Assembly (NCBI GenBank): GCA_947479755.1
Contig: CANKAM010000023.1
Span: 1 to 56,924, forward strand
Reading direction: 5' to 3'
DNA from: Bacteroidota bacterium
GTDB lineage: Bacteria; Bacteroidota; Bacteroidia; SXHM01
DNA: 56,924 bases
Of the stretch, positions 22,522 to 30,794 are shown in pieces. Each line of letters opens with the position of its first letter. Position 1 is the stretch's first letter. The position numbers and the translations under genes are program-made. The notes below the pieces were generated by a model. That model did not search any database. It worked only from the letters and a program-made list of their open reading frames with translations, and was not told the origin of the DNA.

Positions 22522-23358
22522 ATGAAACTGACGTTAGGTTTTTCCCCTTGTCCCAACGACACGTTTATTTTTGATGCGCTTGTAAACAAACGTATTGACA
22601 CCGAAGGTCTGGATTTTGATGTGCAGTTGGGTGATGTAGAAACACTCAACACCAAAGCCTTTAAAGCAGAACTGGATATTACCAAGCTCAGTTATCATGC
22701 GTTTGCTTATATGACTGAGAATTATCAGTTGCTGCATTCAGGCAGTGCGCTTGGTAAAAACTGCGGACCGATACTTATTGCGAAAGAACAAATCTCAAAT
22801 CTCACATCTCAGATCTCACATCTAAAAATTGCTATCCCCGGCAAATATACCACCGCTAATTTTCTTTTAGGTATTGCATTCCATGATGCAAAGAATAAAA
22901 CAGAAATGGTTTTCTCTGAAATTGAAAATGCAGTGTTAGAGGGTAGAGTGGATGCAGGATTAATCATTCACGAAAACCGTTTTACCTACCAAAGCAAAGG
23001 CTTGAAAAAGCTGATTGACCTTGGTGAATTCTGGGAAACAAAAACAGGATTACCCATTCCGTTGGGTGGAATTGCAATTCGAAAAAGTCTGCCGTCAGAA
23101 GTAAAAATAAAGGTTGAAAAATTAATCAGAAAAAGTATTGAATATGCTTTTCCCAATCCCGAAGCAAGCAAAGAATATGTTCGTTGCCACTCTCAAGAAA
23201 TGGAGCCTTCAGTAATTCAAAGTCACATCAACCTGTATGTAAATAATTATTCTATAAACCTTGGTGTGGAAGGGGAGAAGGCAGTAAAGGAAATGTATGC
23301 CATCGGAAAGGAGACAGGAATTATACCTGAAATGCCTGATGCTATTTTTGTTTCCTGA
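22522..23358 (+). CDS. mqnD: 1,4-dihydroxy-6-naphthoate synthase MqnD
   Basis: 278 residues, a periplasmic-binding-protein-like fold enzyme. Characteristic stretches are LGFSPCPNDTFIFDALV, IAIPGKYTTANFLLGI, GLIIHENRFTY and GLPIPLGGIAI with a conserved His-containing VDAGLIIHE. It turns cyclic dehypoxanthinylfutalosine into dihydroxynaphthoate in the futalosine route to menaquinone; the other mqn genes are not here. Residues about 91-102 (ISNLTSQISHLK) are encoded by a run of ATCTCA repeats (22791-22826) in the loop before the GKYTT segment. It follows the GWxTD gene by 2 bp and ends at a strong hairpin. Confidence 0.93.
   Translation: MKLTLGFSPCPNDTFIFDALVNKRIDTEGLDFDVQLGDVETLNTKAFKAELDITKLSYHAFAYMTENYQLLHSGSALGKNCGPILIAKEQISNLTSQISHLKIAIPGKYTTANFLLGIAFHDAKNKTEMVFSEIENAVLEGRVDAGLIIHENRFTYQSKGLKKLIDLGEFWETKTGLPIPLGGIAIRKSLPSEVKIKVEKLIRKSIEYAFPNPEASKEYVRCHSQEMEPSVIQSHINLYVNNYSINLGVEGEKAVKEMYAIGKETGIIPEMPDAIFVS
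22791..22826. repeat. Simple/dispersed repeat (AATCTCACATCTCA) inside mqnD
   Basis: Thirty-six bases made of four to five units of (A/C)ATCTCA(A/C/G), exactly twelve codons, in frame with mqnD. Confidence 0.6.
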
Positions 23359-23402
23359 AAAAAGAAACGCCCCTTGCCTAAGGCGAGGGGCGTTTCTTTT
23401 TT
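23359..23402. terminator. Bidirectional hairpin terminator after mqnD
   Basis: AAAAGAAACGCCCC TTGCC pairs with GGCGA GGGGCGTTTCTTTT, flanked by A- and T-runs on both sides. It serves mqnD (+) and the convergent small exported protein gene (-). Confidence 0.9.
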
Positions 23403-23418
23403 AAATAAGAGATTGTTT

Positions 23419-23733
23419 TTACTTTGTTACAGGAGTTGAAACCTTCTTTTCAATCGTCATTATTTTTATAATGCAGTCGGGCGACTTGTATTTTATTTCT
23501 TCTATCAATTTGTCAAGTGTTTCTTTTGTTTCATCTGCAGGTTTAACTATAAACGCTTTTTCTGTTTGGTCAAAGCCATCTGCTTTACCATAAGTAAGTG
23601 CTCTTAAAATCCCTGCTTTTCCGGCAGACATTTGTTCAAATGAAACCAGAACAATATCTTCTTTTGTGGATTGCGCCATAGAAGAAAAAGAAAATAGAGT
23701 CAGAATTGTAAATGATAAGATTAATTTTTTCAT
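23419..23733 (-). CDS. Small exported protein, cassette 1
   Basis: 104 residues: signal peptide 1-20 (ending SSMAQ), then an 84-residue domain with the order strand (DIVLVSFEQM), helix (GKAGILRALTYG), strand (KAFIVKP), helix (ETLDKLIEEIKYK), strand (CIIKIMT). This beta-alpha-beta-type order suggests a small ferredoxin-like fold; I do not recognise a family. It is a close paralogue of 26781-27107 (roughly three quarters of mature residues identical by eye). It lies 19 bp downstream of the collagen-like gene, as its paralogue lies 11 bp downstream of that gene's paralogue. The pairing suggests the two products work together, by inference only. Confidence 0.85.
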   Translation of the reverse strand: MKKLILSFTILTLFSFSSMAQSTKEDIVLVSFEQMSAGKAGILRALTYGKADGFDQTEKAFIVKPADETKETLDKLIEEIKYKSPDCIIKIMTIEKKVSTPVTK

Positions 23734-23752
23734 AAGATTAGTTTTTATTTGA

Positions 23753-26341
23753 TTACCAAGAAATTATTATTTGTCCATTGCCACCGTTAAAGCCGGTTGT
23801 ATATGATGTGCCTGAGGTTCCTATAGGTGTGACATAACCGCTTCCACCACCACCACCTGTAAAGCAGCCACCACCACCACCGTAAAATCCTCCACCGCCA
23901 CCACCACCAAGTGTTGTCGGACCTGCTGTTCCACCGATTCCTAATACACCAGCATTCCCTGAAGGCCAGTAAAAATAAAGACCGTCAACCCCTCCTGCAC
24001 CGCCACCACCTTGAGTAGCTCCATCACCACCAGTAATGCCAGCTTCACAGGTAGAACCAATATATCCGTTAGGATTACCGCCATTACCTCCATGACTTCC
24101 ACCACCTGTGCAATTAGCACCTGCACCTCCACCACCTGCAGCAACAACTAACCTGTCGCCAAGTGCGTTTCCGGCAGAACGCACATCAGATGCACCTCCA
24201 CCACCACCGCCTTCTTCACCAGCGCTGTAACCTGTACCGCCATTGCCACCTCCGTTATATCCTCCAAGATAACCTGCAGATGGCTGTCCACCTACATGTA
24301 TATTAAGTAATTGACCGGGTGTAACTGTTATAGTAGTTTGTGTTCTTGCACCTAGACCCGGTATGTTATTTCCATAGCTAGCCCAACTACCTATACCGGT
24401 ATTTCCACCTGCACCCCTTGCATCTATCGAAAGAGAAGTAACTCCGCAAGGCACGGTAAAGGATTGTGCGCCTCCTGAATAATTAAATGTTTGTGAGCCT
24501 GCATTGTAGCAGTTAATTGCAATTGCCAGACAGTTTGCTGCACTTGTGCCGCATGAATTTGACGCTGTAACACAAACGTTGCCTGATGATGTCCCAAAAT
24601 TTACTGTTATAGAAGTAGATCCTTGTCCTCCAGTAATGGACGCACCTGAGGGTACTGTCCAGTTATATGATGCAGCTCCCGCTACTGCGCTTATTGAGTA
24701 GCTAACTCCGGTTTGGTTTCCATTTACTGTTGTAGCTCCTGTTATTGCTCCTGGTGTTGCTGGTGCGCCTGAACAACCGCATGAAATACTTATCCAGATG
24801 CTGCCTCCAAACATTTCAAGGCAGTTAGTAGTTGTGTTGAAAATAATTAAACTAAGTGCCGGTGAGGTAATTGCATTACGTTGAGATGTTGACATACGCG
24901 GAACCAACAAACCTTGTGTGGTTGACGTAACTTCAAGTTTTGCTGTTGCATTGGGAACACCGCCTGTTCCAACACCAACGCTTCCTCCATTATTATAAAT
25001 GTTGTTGCTGTTTAATACCCACTGCGAACCATCCCAATAGGTAGTATTTCCTATTGCTGTTCCGCTTGCAAGAAAACCGGTAGGGCCTTGCGGGCCTGTA
25101 GCACCATTAGCTCCTGTAGGACCTTGTGCACCTGTTGCTCCGTTAGCACCGTTAGCCCCTGCAGGACCTTGAGCTCCTGTTGCACCATCTGCACCAGCGG
25201 CTCCTGTAGGACCTTGTGCACCCGTTGCACCATTAGCTCCTGTAGGACCTTGTGCACCCGTTGCTCCATTAGCACCGTTAGCTCCTGTAGGACCTTGAGC
25301 GCCTGTTGCTCCGTCTTGTCCATCCTGCCCATCTATACCATTTATTCCAGCAGCACCCGTAGGACCTTGCGCCCCTGTAGCACCATTAGCTCCTGTAGGA
25401 CCTTGTGCACCCGTTGCACCATTAGCCCCTGTCGGGCCTTGTGCTCCTGTTGCACCGTCTTGTCCATCTTGTCCATCAGCTCCGGCAGGACCTGTTGCTC
25501 CTTGAGCGCCTGTTGCTCCGTCTTGTCCATCCTGACCGTCTTGTCCATCAGCACCTGCAGGACCTGTTGGGCCTTGCGCTCCTGTTGCTCCGTCTTGTCC
25601 ATCTTGTCCGTCAGCACCTGCAGGACCTGTTGCTCCTTGAGCTCCTGTTGCTCCGTCTTGTCCATCTTGTCCGTCAGCACCTGCAGGACCTGTTGCTCCT
25701 TGAGCGCCTGTAGCTCCGTCTTGTCCATCCTGACCGTCTAAACCATTTATTCCAGCAGCACCTGTAGGGCCTTGCGCGCCTGATGGTCCAACCGGACCTT
25801 GTATTCCTTGTAAGCCTTGTGAACCCTGTGTTCCTGTAGGACCTTGTAAGCCTTGCGGCCCTTGTGCTCCAGTTGCACCGTCAGCACCATTAGCTCCTGT
25901 TGAACCGGTTTGCCCTTGTGGTCCAACCGGTCCCTGAGGACCTTGTGCTCCTGTAGCACCGGCAGGACCTTGAGCACCTGTTGCTCCGTCAGTACCTGCA
26001 GGCCCTTGAGAACCTTGTGCTCCTGTAGCACCGGCAGGACCCTGTGGCCCCTGAGGTCCTTGCGGACCAATTGCTTCTACCCAGATAGTTCCGTCAAAAT
26101 ACCAGAACGAACTGGTTGAAATGTTATAAATTAATAGTCCCGTTGCAGGGCTTAAAATTGCATCACGTTGTGCCGTAGTTAATCTTGGCGCAAGAAAACC
26201 TTTGTCATCTGCCGTAAGATCTAAAATTGAACTTGGATGCGGAGTGAGTGTTCCTATACCCATGTTATCCTGTGCAACAGCGCTTAGTGAAAGTGCTGCG
26301 AAAAATAATAGGGTGGAGATTTTTCGTGTAAAAATGTTCAT
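23753..26341 (-). CDS. Collagen-like, PKD-like, glycine-rich secreted protein, cassette 1
   Basis: 862 residues from the ATG at 26341 (upstream codons in this frame lack coding character and precede the -7 box). Order: signal peptide (1-22, ending LSAVAQ); [12 protein letters not shown]...[12 protein letters not shown] head found in Bacteroidota tail-fibre-like surface proteins; about 110 uninterrupted Gly-X-Y triplets (bases 25076-26068), rich in GPQ, GPA, GAQ and GQD; a second APRL-like head ([12 protein letters not shown]); one PKD-like domain ([20 protein letters not shown]...); and a C-terminal glycine-rich domain ([30 protein letters not shown]) resembling the Gly-rich region next to ALK-type receptors. 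No T9SS sorting domain is seen. A collagen-like triple helix with trimeric display is inferred. Confidence 0.88.
25076..26068 (-). repeat. Collagen-like Gly-X-Y coding repeat tract
   Basis: About 331 codons of perfect Gly-X-Y periodicity, with a higher-order unit of 21 residues (63 bp; [21 protein letters not shown]) repeated four to five times in the middle and shorter [12 protein letters not shown] units near the 3' end. Such near-identical tandem units should be prone to length change. Confidence 0.92.
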
Positions 26342-26719
26342 GGGTTTTGTTTTGATTTGAAGAAAAATACGGATTGGTGACAAATATATGTTTTTACACA
26401 TACAAAAAGCAATATTTTTTCGACAAACATCATTTTGTGTGAACAATCTATGGAAAATTGCTTTCTTCAAGTTACGCTTCCTTTATTATCCCTTTAGCCT
26501 AACCAATGGTTTTCAAAGACCTAATTATCCTGTCTGCTTTTTTACAATCAGGGTTATGATGCTAGCACTACGGATTGTGATGCAATCACCAGGAGTTGTT
26601 GTGAAATTACCAGAGGGTGTGGTGCTTATCTGAAACAACCAAGAGTATGGTTAACGAATCTCACCAACAAATAGCTTACTTCAATTCCCTGAGACGATTC
26701 CTTTTAGTTCAAGCCCTTT
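26342..26719. other. Intergenic stretch upstream of cassette 1
   Basis: Between the collagen-like gene start and the terminator of cassette 2. The first 50 bases hold the promoter of cassette 1. The rest has no convincing gene. A 41-codon stop-free stretch on the minus strand (26525-26650) reads like worn coding sequence (QISTTPSGNFTTTPGDC) but has no start; it may be a remnant. Confidence 0.5.
26381..26388 (-). promoter_or_regulatory. Putative -7 element, cassette 1
   Basis: Reads TATATTTG on the minus strand, the same octamer as upstream of cassette 2; 39 bp before the ATG at 26341. Confidence 0.55.
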
Positions 26720-26755
26720 AAAAAGAAACGCTCTGATTTATTAGAGCGTTTCTTT
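26720..26755 (-). terminator. Hairpin terminator of cassette 2
   Basis: AAAGAAACGCTCT and AGAGCGTTTCTTT form a 13-bp perfect stem with an 8-base loop, flanked by A-run and T-run, 25 bp beyond the stop of the small protein gene. Its arms share AAAGAAACGC with the hairpin at 23359. Confidence 0.88.
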
Positions 26756-26780
26756 AGCCATATAAAATGGAGTTGTAGTT

Positions 26781-27107
26781 TTATTTCCCTTGAGTTGCAG
26801 TAGGCACCACAACCTTTTTCTCTGTTGTTTTTATTTTAACAATGCAGTCGGGTGATTTGTATTTTATTTCATCCACCAATTTGTCAAGTGTTTCTTGGGT
26901 AGCATCAGCCGGCTTAACAATAAAGGCTTTTTCATTTTGGTCAAAACCATTGAATTTACCGTAAGTAAGTTTATTCAGAAGTCCTGCTTTTGAAGCAGAC
27001 ATCTGTTCAAAAGAAACCAGCACAACATCCTCTTTTGTGGACTGTGCAAATGATTGGCTCACTAGTGCTAGGGTGAAAAACGAAAGTGATAGGATTATTT
27101 TTTTCAT
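26781..27107 (-). CDS. Small exported protein, cassette 2
   Basis: 108 residues: signal peptide 1-22 (ending SQSFAQ) and a mature domain nearly the same as that of 23419-23733 (shared STKED, VLVSFEQMSA, KAFIVKPAD, EIKYKSPDCI). Differences cluster in the first helix (SKAGLLNKL against GKAGILRAL) and the tail. There is one Cys in the mature region, conserved in both copies. It lies 11 bp downstream of the larger cassette gene and ends at a strong hairpin. Function unknown. Confidence 0.85.
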   Translation of the reverse strand: MKKIILSLSFFTLALVSQSFAQSTKEDVVLVSFEQMSASKAGLLNKLTYGKFNGFDQNEKAFIVKPADATQETLDKLVDEIKYKSPDCIVKIKTTEKKVVVPTATQGK

Positions 27108-27118
27108 AAAGAATAGTA

Positions 27119-29077
27119 TTACCAGTTAATTGTTACTTGTCCGTTGCCTGCATTGTAGCCCGCAGTATAGCTTGTTCCTGAACTTCCTACAGGGGTTACA
27201 TAGCTGCTGCCACCGCCACCACCGCCAAAGCAACCGCCACCGCCACCGTAGTATCCGCCACCGCCACCACCACCAAGGGTTGTGGTTCCGGCAGTTCCGC
27301 CAATACCAAAGGTTCCGGCATTACCGGCAGGCCATGTAAAGTATAAATTATCCACTCCACCTGCACCTGCACCGCTCTGTGTAGCTCCATCACCTCCACC
27401 AATTCCTGCTTCGCAGGTAGCGCCAATATATCCATTAGGGTCGCCACCATTACCTCCGTGGTTACCACCACCCTGACAATCTGCACCTGCACCGCCACCG
27501 CCACCGGCAACAACTAATCTGTCGCTGAGTGTATTTCCTGCTGAACGGATATCAGAAGCTCCGCCACCGCCACCGCCTTCTTCACCTGCTCCGTATCCTG
27601 TTCCTCCATCACCACCGCCATTGTATCCTCCCAGATAACCGGGAGAAGGCTGACCACCTACATAAACATAAATCAATTGTCCGGGTGTAACGGTTAAAGT
27701 AGTTTGAGTTCTTGCTCCTAATCCGGGGTTATTATTTCCATAGTTAGCCCATGAGCCAATACCAATAGTTGATCCTGCTCCTGCAGCATCAACAGAAATG
27801 GATGTTACTCCGCAAGGAACTGTAAATGACTGAACACCTCCTGTAAATGTAAAAGATGAAGAACCAGCTGTATAACAATTTAATGTTATAGCCAGGCAAC
27901 TTGCTGCGCTGGTGCCGCATGAATTGCTTGCTGTAACACAAACATTTCCTGCTGAACTTCCGAAATCAACTGTAACGGCTGTTGTTCCTTGTCCGCCTGT
28001 AACAGTTGCTCCTGAAGGAACTGTCCATGTATAAGAAGTTGCTCCGCTTACTGCACTGATGGAGTAGCTTACGCCTGTTTGATTTGCATTTACAGTTGTT
28101 GCTCCTGAAATGCTTCCCGGTGTTGCAGGTGCAGTGTTGATAGTTATTCCAACTGTACTTGCAGAGCTTGTTCCGCAGGTATTGCTTGCTGTTACTGAAA
28201 TATTTCCTGCTGAACTTCCGAAATCAACAGTAACCGATGTTGTTCCCTGACCAGATACTATAGTAGCACCTGATGGCACTGTCCATGTATAAGAAGTAGC
28301 TCCTGAAACAGAACCGATAGAATAAGACACACCTGTTTGTCCGCTGCAAACGCTTGTTACACCTGAAATTGATCCCGGTGTAGAAGGCGTTTGACAGCCG
28401 CAGCTAATGCTAATCCAGTTGCCGGAAATGTAAATCTCAAGACATTGTGTGGTGGTATTGAAAATGAGTAAGCTGTTGGCAGGCGAAACAATAGCGTTAC
28501 GCTGTGCTGTTGTTAATCGTGTAATTAATGTACCTTGAGTAGTAGAGGAAGCTTCAAATACTGCTGAAGCATCGGTAGGACCACCTGTTCCAACACCAAC
28601 TCCACCTCCGTTGTTATAAATATTGTTGCTGTTTACTACCCATTGTGTACCATCCCAGTAGGTAGTATTGCCCGGTGCTGTCCCGTTCGGTAAAAATCCG
28701 GTAGGTCCTGTTGCTCCATCTGCTCCTGAAGGACCTTGAGCGCCTGTAGCACCGTCAGCACCTGAAGGGCCGGTTGGACCAACTGTACCTGTTTGTCCTG
28801 TTACCTGTACCCAGATATTTTGTGCTCCGTCAAAATACCAGAATGTTTTATCATCGGTATTGTAAATCAATAATCCGTCAGCAGGATTTGCGATTGCATC
28901 GCGCTGAACAGATGTTAATCTTGGTGCAAGAAATCCTTTATTATTGGATGATAAGTCAAGTACTGAAGTAGGATCAGGAGTTAATGTTCCTATACCCATG
29001 TTGTTTTGTGCAACAAGATTTAATGATAGTGTTGCAAAAAGAACAAAGTTTAAAATTCGTTTGGTAAATGTATTCAT
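27119..29077 (-). CDS. Collagen-like, PKD-like, glycine-rich secreted protein, cassette 2
   Basis: 652 residues from the ATG at 29077. Same plan as the 23753-26341 product: signal peptide (ending LNLVAQ), [13 protein letters not shown] head, short Gly-X-Y tract (about 10 triplets, [15 protein letters not shown]), second head (ITRLTTAQRNAI), PKD-like part and Gly-rich C-terminus ([30 protein letters not shown], then VTINW). It differs by carrying two PKD-like domains in tandem (GSISGVTSVCSGQTG and GSISGATTVNANQTG) where cassette 1 has one, and by having almost no collagen-like tract. An exported surface or matrix protein by inference. Confidence 0.87.
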   Translation of the reverse strand: MNTFTKRILNFVLFATLSLNLVAQNNMGIGTLTPDPTSVLDLSSNNKGFLAPRLTSVQRDAIANPADGLLIYNTDDKTFWYFDGAQNIWVQVTGQTGTVGPTGPSGADGATGAQGPSGADGATGPTGFLPNGTAPGNTTYWDGTQWVVNSNNIYNNGGGVGVGTGGPTDASAVFEASSTTQGTLITRLTTAQRNAIVSPANSLLIFNTTTQCLEIYISGNWISISCGCQTPSTPGSISGVTSVCSGQTGVSYSIGSVSGATSYTWTVPSGATIVSGQGTTSVTVDFGSSAGNISVTASNTCGTSSASTVGITINTAPATPGSISGATTVNANQTGVSYSISAVSGATSYTWTVPSGATVTGGQGTTAVTVDFGSSAGNVCVTASNSCGTSAASCLAITLNCYTAGSSSFTFTGGVQSFTVPCGVTSISVDAAGAGSTIGIGSWANYGNNNPGLGARTQTTLTVTPGQLIYVYVGGQPSPGYLGGYNGGGDGGTGYGAGEEGGGGGGASDIRSAGNTLSDRLVVAGGGGGAGADCQGGGNHGGNGGDPNGYIGATCEAGIGGGDGATQSGAGAGGVDNLYFTWPAGNAGTFGIGGTAGTTTLGGGGGGGYYGGGGGCFGGGGGGSSYVTPVGSSGTSYTAGYNAGNGQVTINW

Positions 29078-29123: not shown

Positions 29124-29158
29124 CAAATATAGACTATTGTGTTTTCCTTACACAAATA
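29124..29158 (-). promoter_or_regulatory. Putative promoter of cassette 2
   Basis: On the minus strand TTTG (about 29153-29156) is followed after about 21 bp by TATATTTG (29124-29131), matching the phylum promoter pattern. The ATG is 46 bp further on. Confidence 0.55.
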
Positions 29159-29324
29159 TATTTCATGCTGTATGGATTAAATTAAAGGGTAAGTAAATAC
29201 CCGTTTTTTTCAGGATTAATATCCATCACGATCATATAAATATGAGATTAATCATCTTCCTACAAAAATGATTTGATTTCCCTCGCTTCATAATTTCATT
29301 TACTTTGTCGGCAAATTATTTTAG

Positions 29325-30794
29325 ATGAGGAATTTATTTACAGTTGCGTTTTTTACTCTCACGTTACTTGTTTCAACTTTTGCTTTTGCCGGTGGCTGCG
29401 ATGTAAATGCAAGTATTACAGCAAGTGGACCAACCACATTCTGTTCTAACGATAGCATTACCTTAACAGCAAACCCCGGTGCATCTTATTTATGGACAAA
29501 TGGCGAAACAACTCAAAGTATCTGGGTAACACAATCGGGGCCATACCGAGTTAATGTAACCGACTCAACGGGTTGTTCCGATAATTCCGGTTTTACTTTT
29601 ATTAATGTTTTACCTGCACCCAATGCTACTATATTATCAGACCAGTTGCCTCCTTATTGCATGGGTGATACGGTGACTTTATTCACATTGAGTTTACCGT
29701 TTAATGATTTTGAATGGTCAACAGGCGAAACAGGAGCAACAATACAAATAACACAATCCGGTTTATATTCTGTTAATGTTACAAATTTTGTCGGGTGTTC
29801 TGATATGGCAATGTTCCCTGCAGCCTTTCTGCCAGCACCTTTTCTTAGTGTTACAGCAGATGGACCATTAACTTTTTGCGAAGGACAGGATGTTAAAATT
29901 TCTGTAAACTTTGGTTTCGGACTGGATTTTCTTTGGGCGCCAAACGGTGAAACAGGTTCTAATATTACCGTAAATCAATCCGGTACTTACAATGTAAATG
30001 CAACTAATTTTTTCGCTTGCAACAGTACATCTCAGGATTTTGTGGTAAACGTTGTTCCTTTACCAACTGCTTTTGCCGAATTAGATACCTTACTGTGTTT
30101 CCCTGATACGGTGGCGCTTTCTGCAACGGGCGGAACAAATTATTCGTGGTCGAATGGCTCATCAGGTTCAGACATTTCTGTTATTCCTGATTTTGGCGAC
30201 AGCCAGTATATTGTTACCGTTTCTAATCCTGGGTGCAACATTACAGCAAAAGACACAGCCTTTATTCATGTAGGAGGCGATGTTGAGGCTGATTTTTTGG
30301 TAACTCCCGGATTGTTGGGAGATGAAACCTTCTTCACTGATTTATCAACCGGAAACATTGTAAACTGGAATTGGGATTTAGATAACGGACAATTTTCTTC
30401 ATTGCAAAATCCAGCCACGATTTACTTGGCCCAAGATACGTTTACTGTTGTGCTGATTGTTGCCGACCAATATGGTTGCAGCGACACAACTCAACAAAGT
30501 TTTGGCATTGAACAGATAATTACCATTCCCAATGTTTTTACTCCAAATGGCGATGGCTACAACGATAGCTTTTATATCCGAAATAAGGGAGATGGTGGTT
30601 TTGTATTTACTGTTTCCAATCGCTGGGGACAAGTTGTTTATGAAAGTGAAGGGCAGGAAGTCCGTTGGAGTGGGTTAACCAATTCAGGTGTTGAGTTGGA
30701 GGCAGGAACTTATTTTTATAGTCTAAAAGTTGATCTGCAATCAGGTGAGGAACCAGTGGTGCAAAAAGGATTTATTACGTTAATAAAAGGATGA
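29325..30794 (+). CDS. T9SS type B secreted protein with repeated Ig/PKD-like domains
   Basis: 489 residues. Signal peptide (1-22, ending AFAGG). Three or four repeated ~85-residue modules with the pattern FC-x-x-D-S-ITLTA...YLWTNGETTQSI-x-V-x-x-SG-x-Y-x-V-NVT, then a PKD domain (ADFLVTPG...WNWDLDNGQ...). The last ~90 residues are a gliding-motility-associated sorting domain: IPNVFTPNGDGYNDSFYI, VSNRWGQVVYE, AGTYFYSLKV, KGFITLIKG. This predicts export through T9SS and surface attachment. The stop overlaps the queD start (ATGA), which is unusual for such a gene. Confidence 0.9.
   Translation: MRNLFTVAFFTLTLLVSTFAFAGGCDVNASITASGPTTFCSNDSITLTANPGASYLWTNGETTQSIWVTQSGPYRVNVTDSTGCSDNSGFTFINVLPAPNATILSDQLPPYCMGDTVTLFTLSLPFNDFEWSTGETGATIQITQSGLYSVNVTNFVGCSDMAMFPAAFLPAPFLSVTADGPLTFCEGQDVKISVNFGFGLDFLWAPNGETGSNITVNQSGTYNVNATNFFACNSTSQDFVVNVVPLPTAFAELDTLLCFPDTVALSATGGTNYSWSNGSSGSDISVIPDFGDSQYIVTVSNPGCNITAKDTAFIHVGGDVEADFLVTPGLLGDETFFTDLSTGNIVNWNWDLDNGQFSSLQNPATIYLAQDTFTVVLIVADQYGCSDTTQQSFGIEQIITIPNVFTPNGDGYNDSFYIRNKGDGGFVFTVSNRWGQVVYESEGQEVRWSGLTNSGVELEAGTYFYSLKVDLQSGEEPVVQKGFITLIKG

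Follow-up and report, generated by a model that had tools for sequence, protein, structure and literature searches.

Two-gene cassettes in a Bacteroidota genome pair a collagen-like fibre protein with a small exported protein that may assemble or cap its glycine-rich tip

What does a small exported protein do when its gene lies directly behind that of a large, collagen-like exported protein? The question is raised by two cassettes at positions 23,419–29,077 of contig CANKAM010000023.1 (GCA_947479755.1, Bacteroidota bacterium, SXHM01), the 56,924 nucleotides (nt) of which are the window analyzed here. Each cassette is a two-gene, operon-like unit on the minus strand, with the large gene first, the small gene 3′ of it, and gaps of 11 nt (cassette 1) and 19 nt (cassette 2). 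An earlier reading made from the letters alone (the sequence-only reading) had proposed that the small protein is a dedicated partner of the large one, and its coordinates, strand, gene order and gaps proved exact when rechecked. The features are listed below, with lengths in amino acids (aa).

27119–29077, minus: large protein 1, 652 aa; Sec signal peptide, two head modules flanking a short collagen-like stretch, two PKD_6 domains and, at the C terminus, an ALK/LTK-type glycine-rich domain; type IX secretion system (T9SS) tail absent
27122–27877, minus: glycine-rich domain of large protein 1, C-terminal, 252 aa, with no domain between it and the stop codon
26781–27107, minus: small exported partner 1, 108 aa (mature part about 87), modelled with a ferredoxin-like core
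23753–26341, minus: large protein 2, 862 aa; plan of large protein 1, but the collagen-like shaft is long and PKD_6 occurs once
23756–24511, minus: glycine-rich domain of large protein 2, C-terminal
23419–23733, minus: small exported partner 2, 104 aa, 84 mature
29124–29131, minus: TATATTTG, putative -7 element of cassette 1; the octamer recurs at 29153–29160
26381–26388, minus: TATATTTG, putative -7 element of cassette 2
26722–26755, minus: intrinsic terminator 3′ of small gene 1 (80-nt stretch folding at -19.7 kcal/mol)
23358–23402, minus: intrinsic terminator 3′ of small gene 2, before a convergent mqnD-like gene (-31.3 kcal/mol)

The large proteins share one order of parts: after the signal peptide come a head module, the collagen-like shaft, another head module (matched at 28436–28600 in large protein 1 and 24788–24979 in large protein 2), PKD_6 and the glycine-rich tip. 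As the sequence-only reading had noticed, the small proteins are nearly alike (76% identity in the mature parts) and the large ones agree in the tip (79% identity) and differ in module number, the collagen-like part comprising about 11 triplets in large protein 1 versus about 350 residues in large protein 2, and PKD_6 occurring twice versus once. A repeat analysis gave 79% identity over 237 nt of the small genes and 74% over 300 nt of the tips, at nearly equal spacing. The shaft of large protein 2 is collagen-like above the Pfam cut-off (PF01391, 100 bits); large protein 1 has no PF01391 match and only a short Gly-X-Y stretch.

The tip of large protein 1 matches the ALK/LTK glycine-rich domain PF12810 with 54 bits against a cut-off of 24.5 (E 2.7e-14; protein 1 only), and its structure model (predicted local distance difference test, pLDDT, 88.7) has ALK/LTK glycine-rich domains as its top PDB matches (E 1e-7). 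By Pfam score and predicted fold, the tip is thus of the ALK/LTK type; template modelling scores of about 0.5 indicate the same kind of fold and not the same protein, and this tip is bacterial and ends a collagen-like fibre. Tip relatives occur in 67 of the 395 genomes sampled from the class, and in most of the places read a T9SS type A tail or further domains come after it, the tail being confirmed in all 10 tested. Neither large protein matched the T9SS sorting domains TIGR04183 and TIGR04131 at E ≤ 1; the divergent neighbor at 29325–30794 matched TIGR04131 at 6e-12 in the same scan, and type A tails number at least 150 in this genome. Both also lack the C-terminal Peptidase_S74 domain matched in other fibres of the genus, and no toxin family was found in them in Pfam and NCBIfam scans.

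The small protein, which the sequence-only reading had not recognized as part of a described system, matches neither a Pfam or NCBIfam family nor any natural protein in PDB. Its AlphaFold model (84 residues, strand-helix-strand-strand-helix-strand, core pLDDT about 90) confidently predicts a ferredoxin-like core and contains no outer-membrane beta-barrel of the PorP/SprF kind. No Pfam or NCBIfam match connects it to ferredoxin-like chaperones (NapD, protease propeptides), and NapD appears among the generic fold matches only. A match to 6c2u, which we take to be a designed protein, was not used. Since the protein has neither a family nor a solved natural relative, its function has to be read from context, and our literature searches returned no description of the pair.

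We searched for the small protein in 395 class genomes, 395 phylum genomes and viral contigs. Within the genus there are six copies, two in the window genome, two in genome G003 and single ones in G004 and G005; every one lies immediately 3′ of a gene for a large protein built to this plan. In another order, genome G061 carries a small gene whose product is 26–37% identical at the 3′ end of the gene for a 699-aa collagen-like protein with a tip 57–61% identical. All seven copies of this large-protein type, from two orders, have the small gene 8–20 nt downstream or overlapping, and this adjacency persists over order-level divergence while the flanking genes differ. Among seven congeneric genomes, tip and small protein are jointly present in four and jointly absent in three (G001, G002 and G006; Fisher p 0.029), with the reservation that two of the absences come from incomplete genomes, G002 (68%) and G006 (87%). 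Both genes are under purifying selection, with a ratio of nonsynonymous to synonymous rates of 0.06–0.24 for the small gene.

No further members were found in the two genome samples or the viral contigs, and a phage origin was rejected for want of any relative in the latter. The weak class-wide profile matches (L026–L040) look like signal-peptide matches or, at L038, like a heavy-metal-domain-like protein. The named records that carry the cassette are metagenome-assembled genomes of Bacteroidia, for which "freshwater" is a reading of an isolate name.

Which part of the fibre does the small protein follow? The duplication is old, since G003 has both cassettes, as does the window genome. The heads pair window cassette 2 with G003b (92%) and window cassette 1 with G003a (81%). 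In a FastTree phylogeny of seven sequences, however, the G003a small protein groups with window cassette 2 and G003b (support 0.97), whereas the G003a tip groups with window cassette 1 and G004 (0.98). We attribute this discordance to gene conversion or exchange, and partners are therefore probably interchangeable between cassettes. The G061 protein has kept its tip and not its head (22–28% identical). Together with the different groupings of the G003a small protein and tip, this suggests that the small protein may read the conserved tip rather than the variable shaft.

The arrangement recurs with other proteins. Fibres with the same head module are abundant (15 matches in the window genome) and bear other tips, several of which are followed by a different small exported protein. 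With the cassette pair as type A, type B combines a tip ending in YLQ..EIN[D/E/Q] with an exported protein of 150–154 aa in seven of seven places and two families, and its partner is unrelated to that of type A apart from the signal peptide. Type C consists of a 343–344-aa fibre and a 90–93-aa exported protein (two genomes), type D of a GP38-like glycine-rich fibre (PF05268) and an exported protein of about 200 aa (four places, two families), and type E of a 1500-aa glycine-rich fibre and a 185-aa protein with a B-related end (one place). About five of the 11 fibre types in the genus are paired (p = 0.007 against a crude background of 12.5%, and 4e-5 against 4% for exported genes), the background being taken from the fetched stretches only, with signal peptides called by a simple rule. 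Unpaired types include S74, collar-type and several others; Peptidase_S74-ending fibres lack a small partner whether the end is a Pfam match (L173, L195) or motif-like (L185, L192).

Individual loci illustrate the range. At L160 (2432–7302), two tandem collagen-like fibre genes are each followed by a 153–154-aa exported partner of the second, unrelated family, a pair kept in family f9 (L210, L215, L216). L179 (1125–3245) and L203 encode a fibre of 498 aa, part of which is GP38-like (phage tail adhesin), and then an exported protein of about 200 aa, a combination shared by two orders. L115 and L116 have short low-complexity exported open reading frames downstream of fibre genes. The window itself begins with the C-terminal part of a fibre protein of the same broad class (58–1026), cut by the contig edge, with the S74-like chaperone motif SDSRLKKDI...GLIAQEL.

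We propose that the large protein is exported by Sec and would form a surface fibre, with a membrane-proximal head, a collagen-like and probably trimeric shaft, PKD spacers and an adhesive glycine-rich tip. The small protein would reach the same compartment and act on the tip, either aiding its assembly as a periplasmic chaperone or remaining on it as a cap; it would thereby do in trans what the S74 chaperone does in cis for other fibres of these genomes. The pairing is conserved in distant relatives and is one of several fibre/partner pairs, and we therefore regard the small protein as probably a tip-specific assembly or capping factor. A functional link between small protein and tip is likely; for the specific role of assembly chaperone or cap within a two-gene operon for a surface fibre, we put the chances at about even. 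More tentatively, some Bacteroidia may maintain a set of fibres without T9SS tails on a common head/collagen chassis, each exchangeable tip coming with a small exported protein of its own for assembly or capping, recruited from one of several unrelated families.

Several observations weigh against this proposal. The ferredoxin-like fold is generic, the best PDB matches being PII-like SbtB proteins (E 0.005). Small exported genes also turn up in background operons (by the crude test, 17 of 136 genes), and the partner types were listed post hoc, once the data had been seen. Tailless glycine-rich fibres without a small partner occur in family f45 (L114, L118) and at L120 and L163, and the small protein paired with one glycine-rich fibre of G003 (L183) is a different one, resembling type B. 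Three of the 10 known small-protein homologues (L016, L018, L019) stand alone, their neighbors being ferredoxin, sugar-epimerase and permease genes, and no fibre gene lies nearby; all are from the order of G061, one per genome, and they point to a separate role for the family. Thus the pairing claimed by the sequence-only reading stands, with seven of the 10 homologues adjoining a large protein and tip and small gene present or absent together, but the word "dedicated" goes too far, given the lone homologues and the tailless glycine-rich fibres with another partner or none. The lone genes (L016 10082–10438, L018 7225–7584, L019 2416–2772) always lie 3′ of a ferredoxin-like gene, and the f45 fibres form arrays of four to five genes, mostly tailless glycine-rich (L114 237–8948, L118 4204–13157).

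Among other explanations, a co-secreted structural subunit or ligand on the tip (cap or second adhesin) without any chaperone role is possible, if rather unlikely. The pairing evidence fits it equally, the type B partner weakly matches phage head-fibre families, and the ALK/LTK glycine-rich domain binds a small protein ligand, as seen in PDB matches complexed with ALKAL/AUG; the same evidence, however, fits cap and chaperone alike. The remaining readings are less likely. That an exported small protein of independent function merely rides in the operon accords with the stand-alone homologues and with how common small exported genes are in operons, but adjacency over order-level divergence despite changed flanks, joint presence and absence, and the same layout in unrelated pairs make it improbable. 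Slightly more doubtful is a T9SS-related secretion helper that stands in for the absent sorting tail, in the way SprF works for SprB. SprF-like genes do often lie directly 3′ of type B substrate genes (PMC12618676), and tip relatives elsewhere usually have the type A tail that the cassette proteins lack in a genome rich in such tails. Against this, S74 and other tailless fibres manage without a small partner. It is very improbable that the small protein inhibits, or gives immunity to, a toxic large protein, as in polymorphic-toxin layouts: some immunity proteins are exported and the small gene does lie 3′ of a large repetitive exported protein, but the C-terminal domain is a conserved glycine-rich domain rather than a variable toxin domain, and no toxin family matched.

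The signals around the genes are ordinary. The sequence-only reading had pointed to a common upstream octamer and to downstream hairpins, and both are present. In each of the genus's six cassettes TATATTTG precedes the start codon by 45–54 nt, as expected of a Bacteroidota -7 element (TAnnTTTG); with five occurrences in the window against 3.55 expected it is no rarer than chance, and we rejected it as a special signal. The hairpins are strong intrinsic terminators, found directly 3′ of the small gene in seven of seven cassettes (six in the genus plus G061), and none was seen between large and small gene in the two window cassettes. A structured RNA was rejected for want of an Rfam match. The divergent neighbor, which has a T9SS type B sorting domain, is kept beside the cassettes in G003 and G005, with no SprF-like gene seen adjoining it.

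The closest described thing is the mosaic adhesive trimeric (MAT) fibre family of Bdellovibrio, in which a Sec signal is followed at once by an invariant N-terminal domain of about 130 residues, a long shaft and mosaic C-terminal tips, with S74 and non-S74 subfamilies in one genome (PMC10769870). The head-module fibres resemble MATs in this general plan; MATs belong to another phylum, and the paper, as far as searched, mentions neither collagen nor small downstream partners. The closest genetic logic is that of T9SS type B substrates such as SprB, for which an SprF-like helper is encoded directly downstream, a large repetitive surface adhesin likewise having its cognate gene 3′ and several PorP-SprF pairs occurring per genome (PMC12618676, PMC10202324). 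The cassette lacks the defining features of that pair, since its large protein has no T9SS C-terminal domain and its partner is a small soluble domain and not a beta-barrel. Peptidase_S74 intramolecular chaperones and phage tail-fibre assembly proteins are similar in helping a trimeric fibre to assemble and in being associated with its C-terminal tip, but the candidate aid here is a separate exported protein with no detected sequence relation to them.

Fibres with the head module are numerous in these genomes, but a known outer-membrane sorting signal is missing from many of those read. Small partners matched to the tip would offer a genetic handle on how such fibres are folded, exported and capped, and tip/partner pairs could serve in building bacterial collagen-like fibres.
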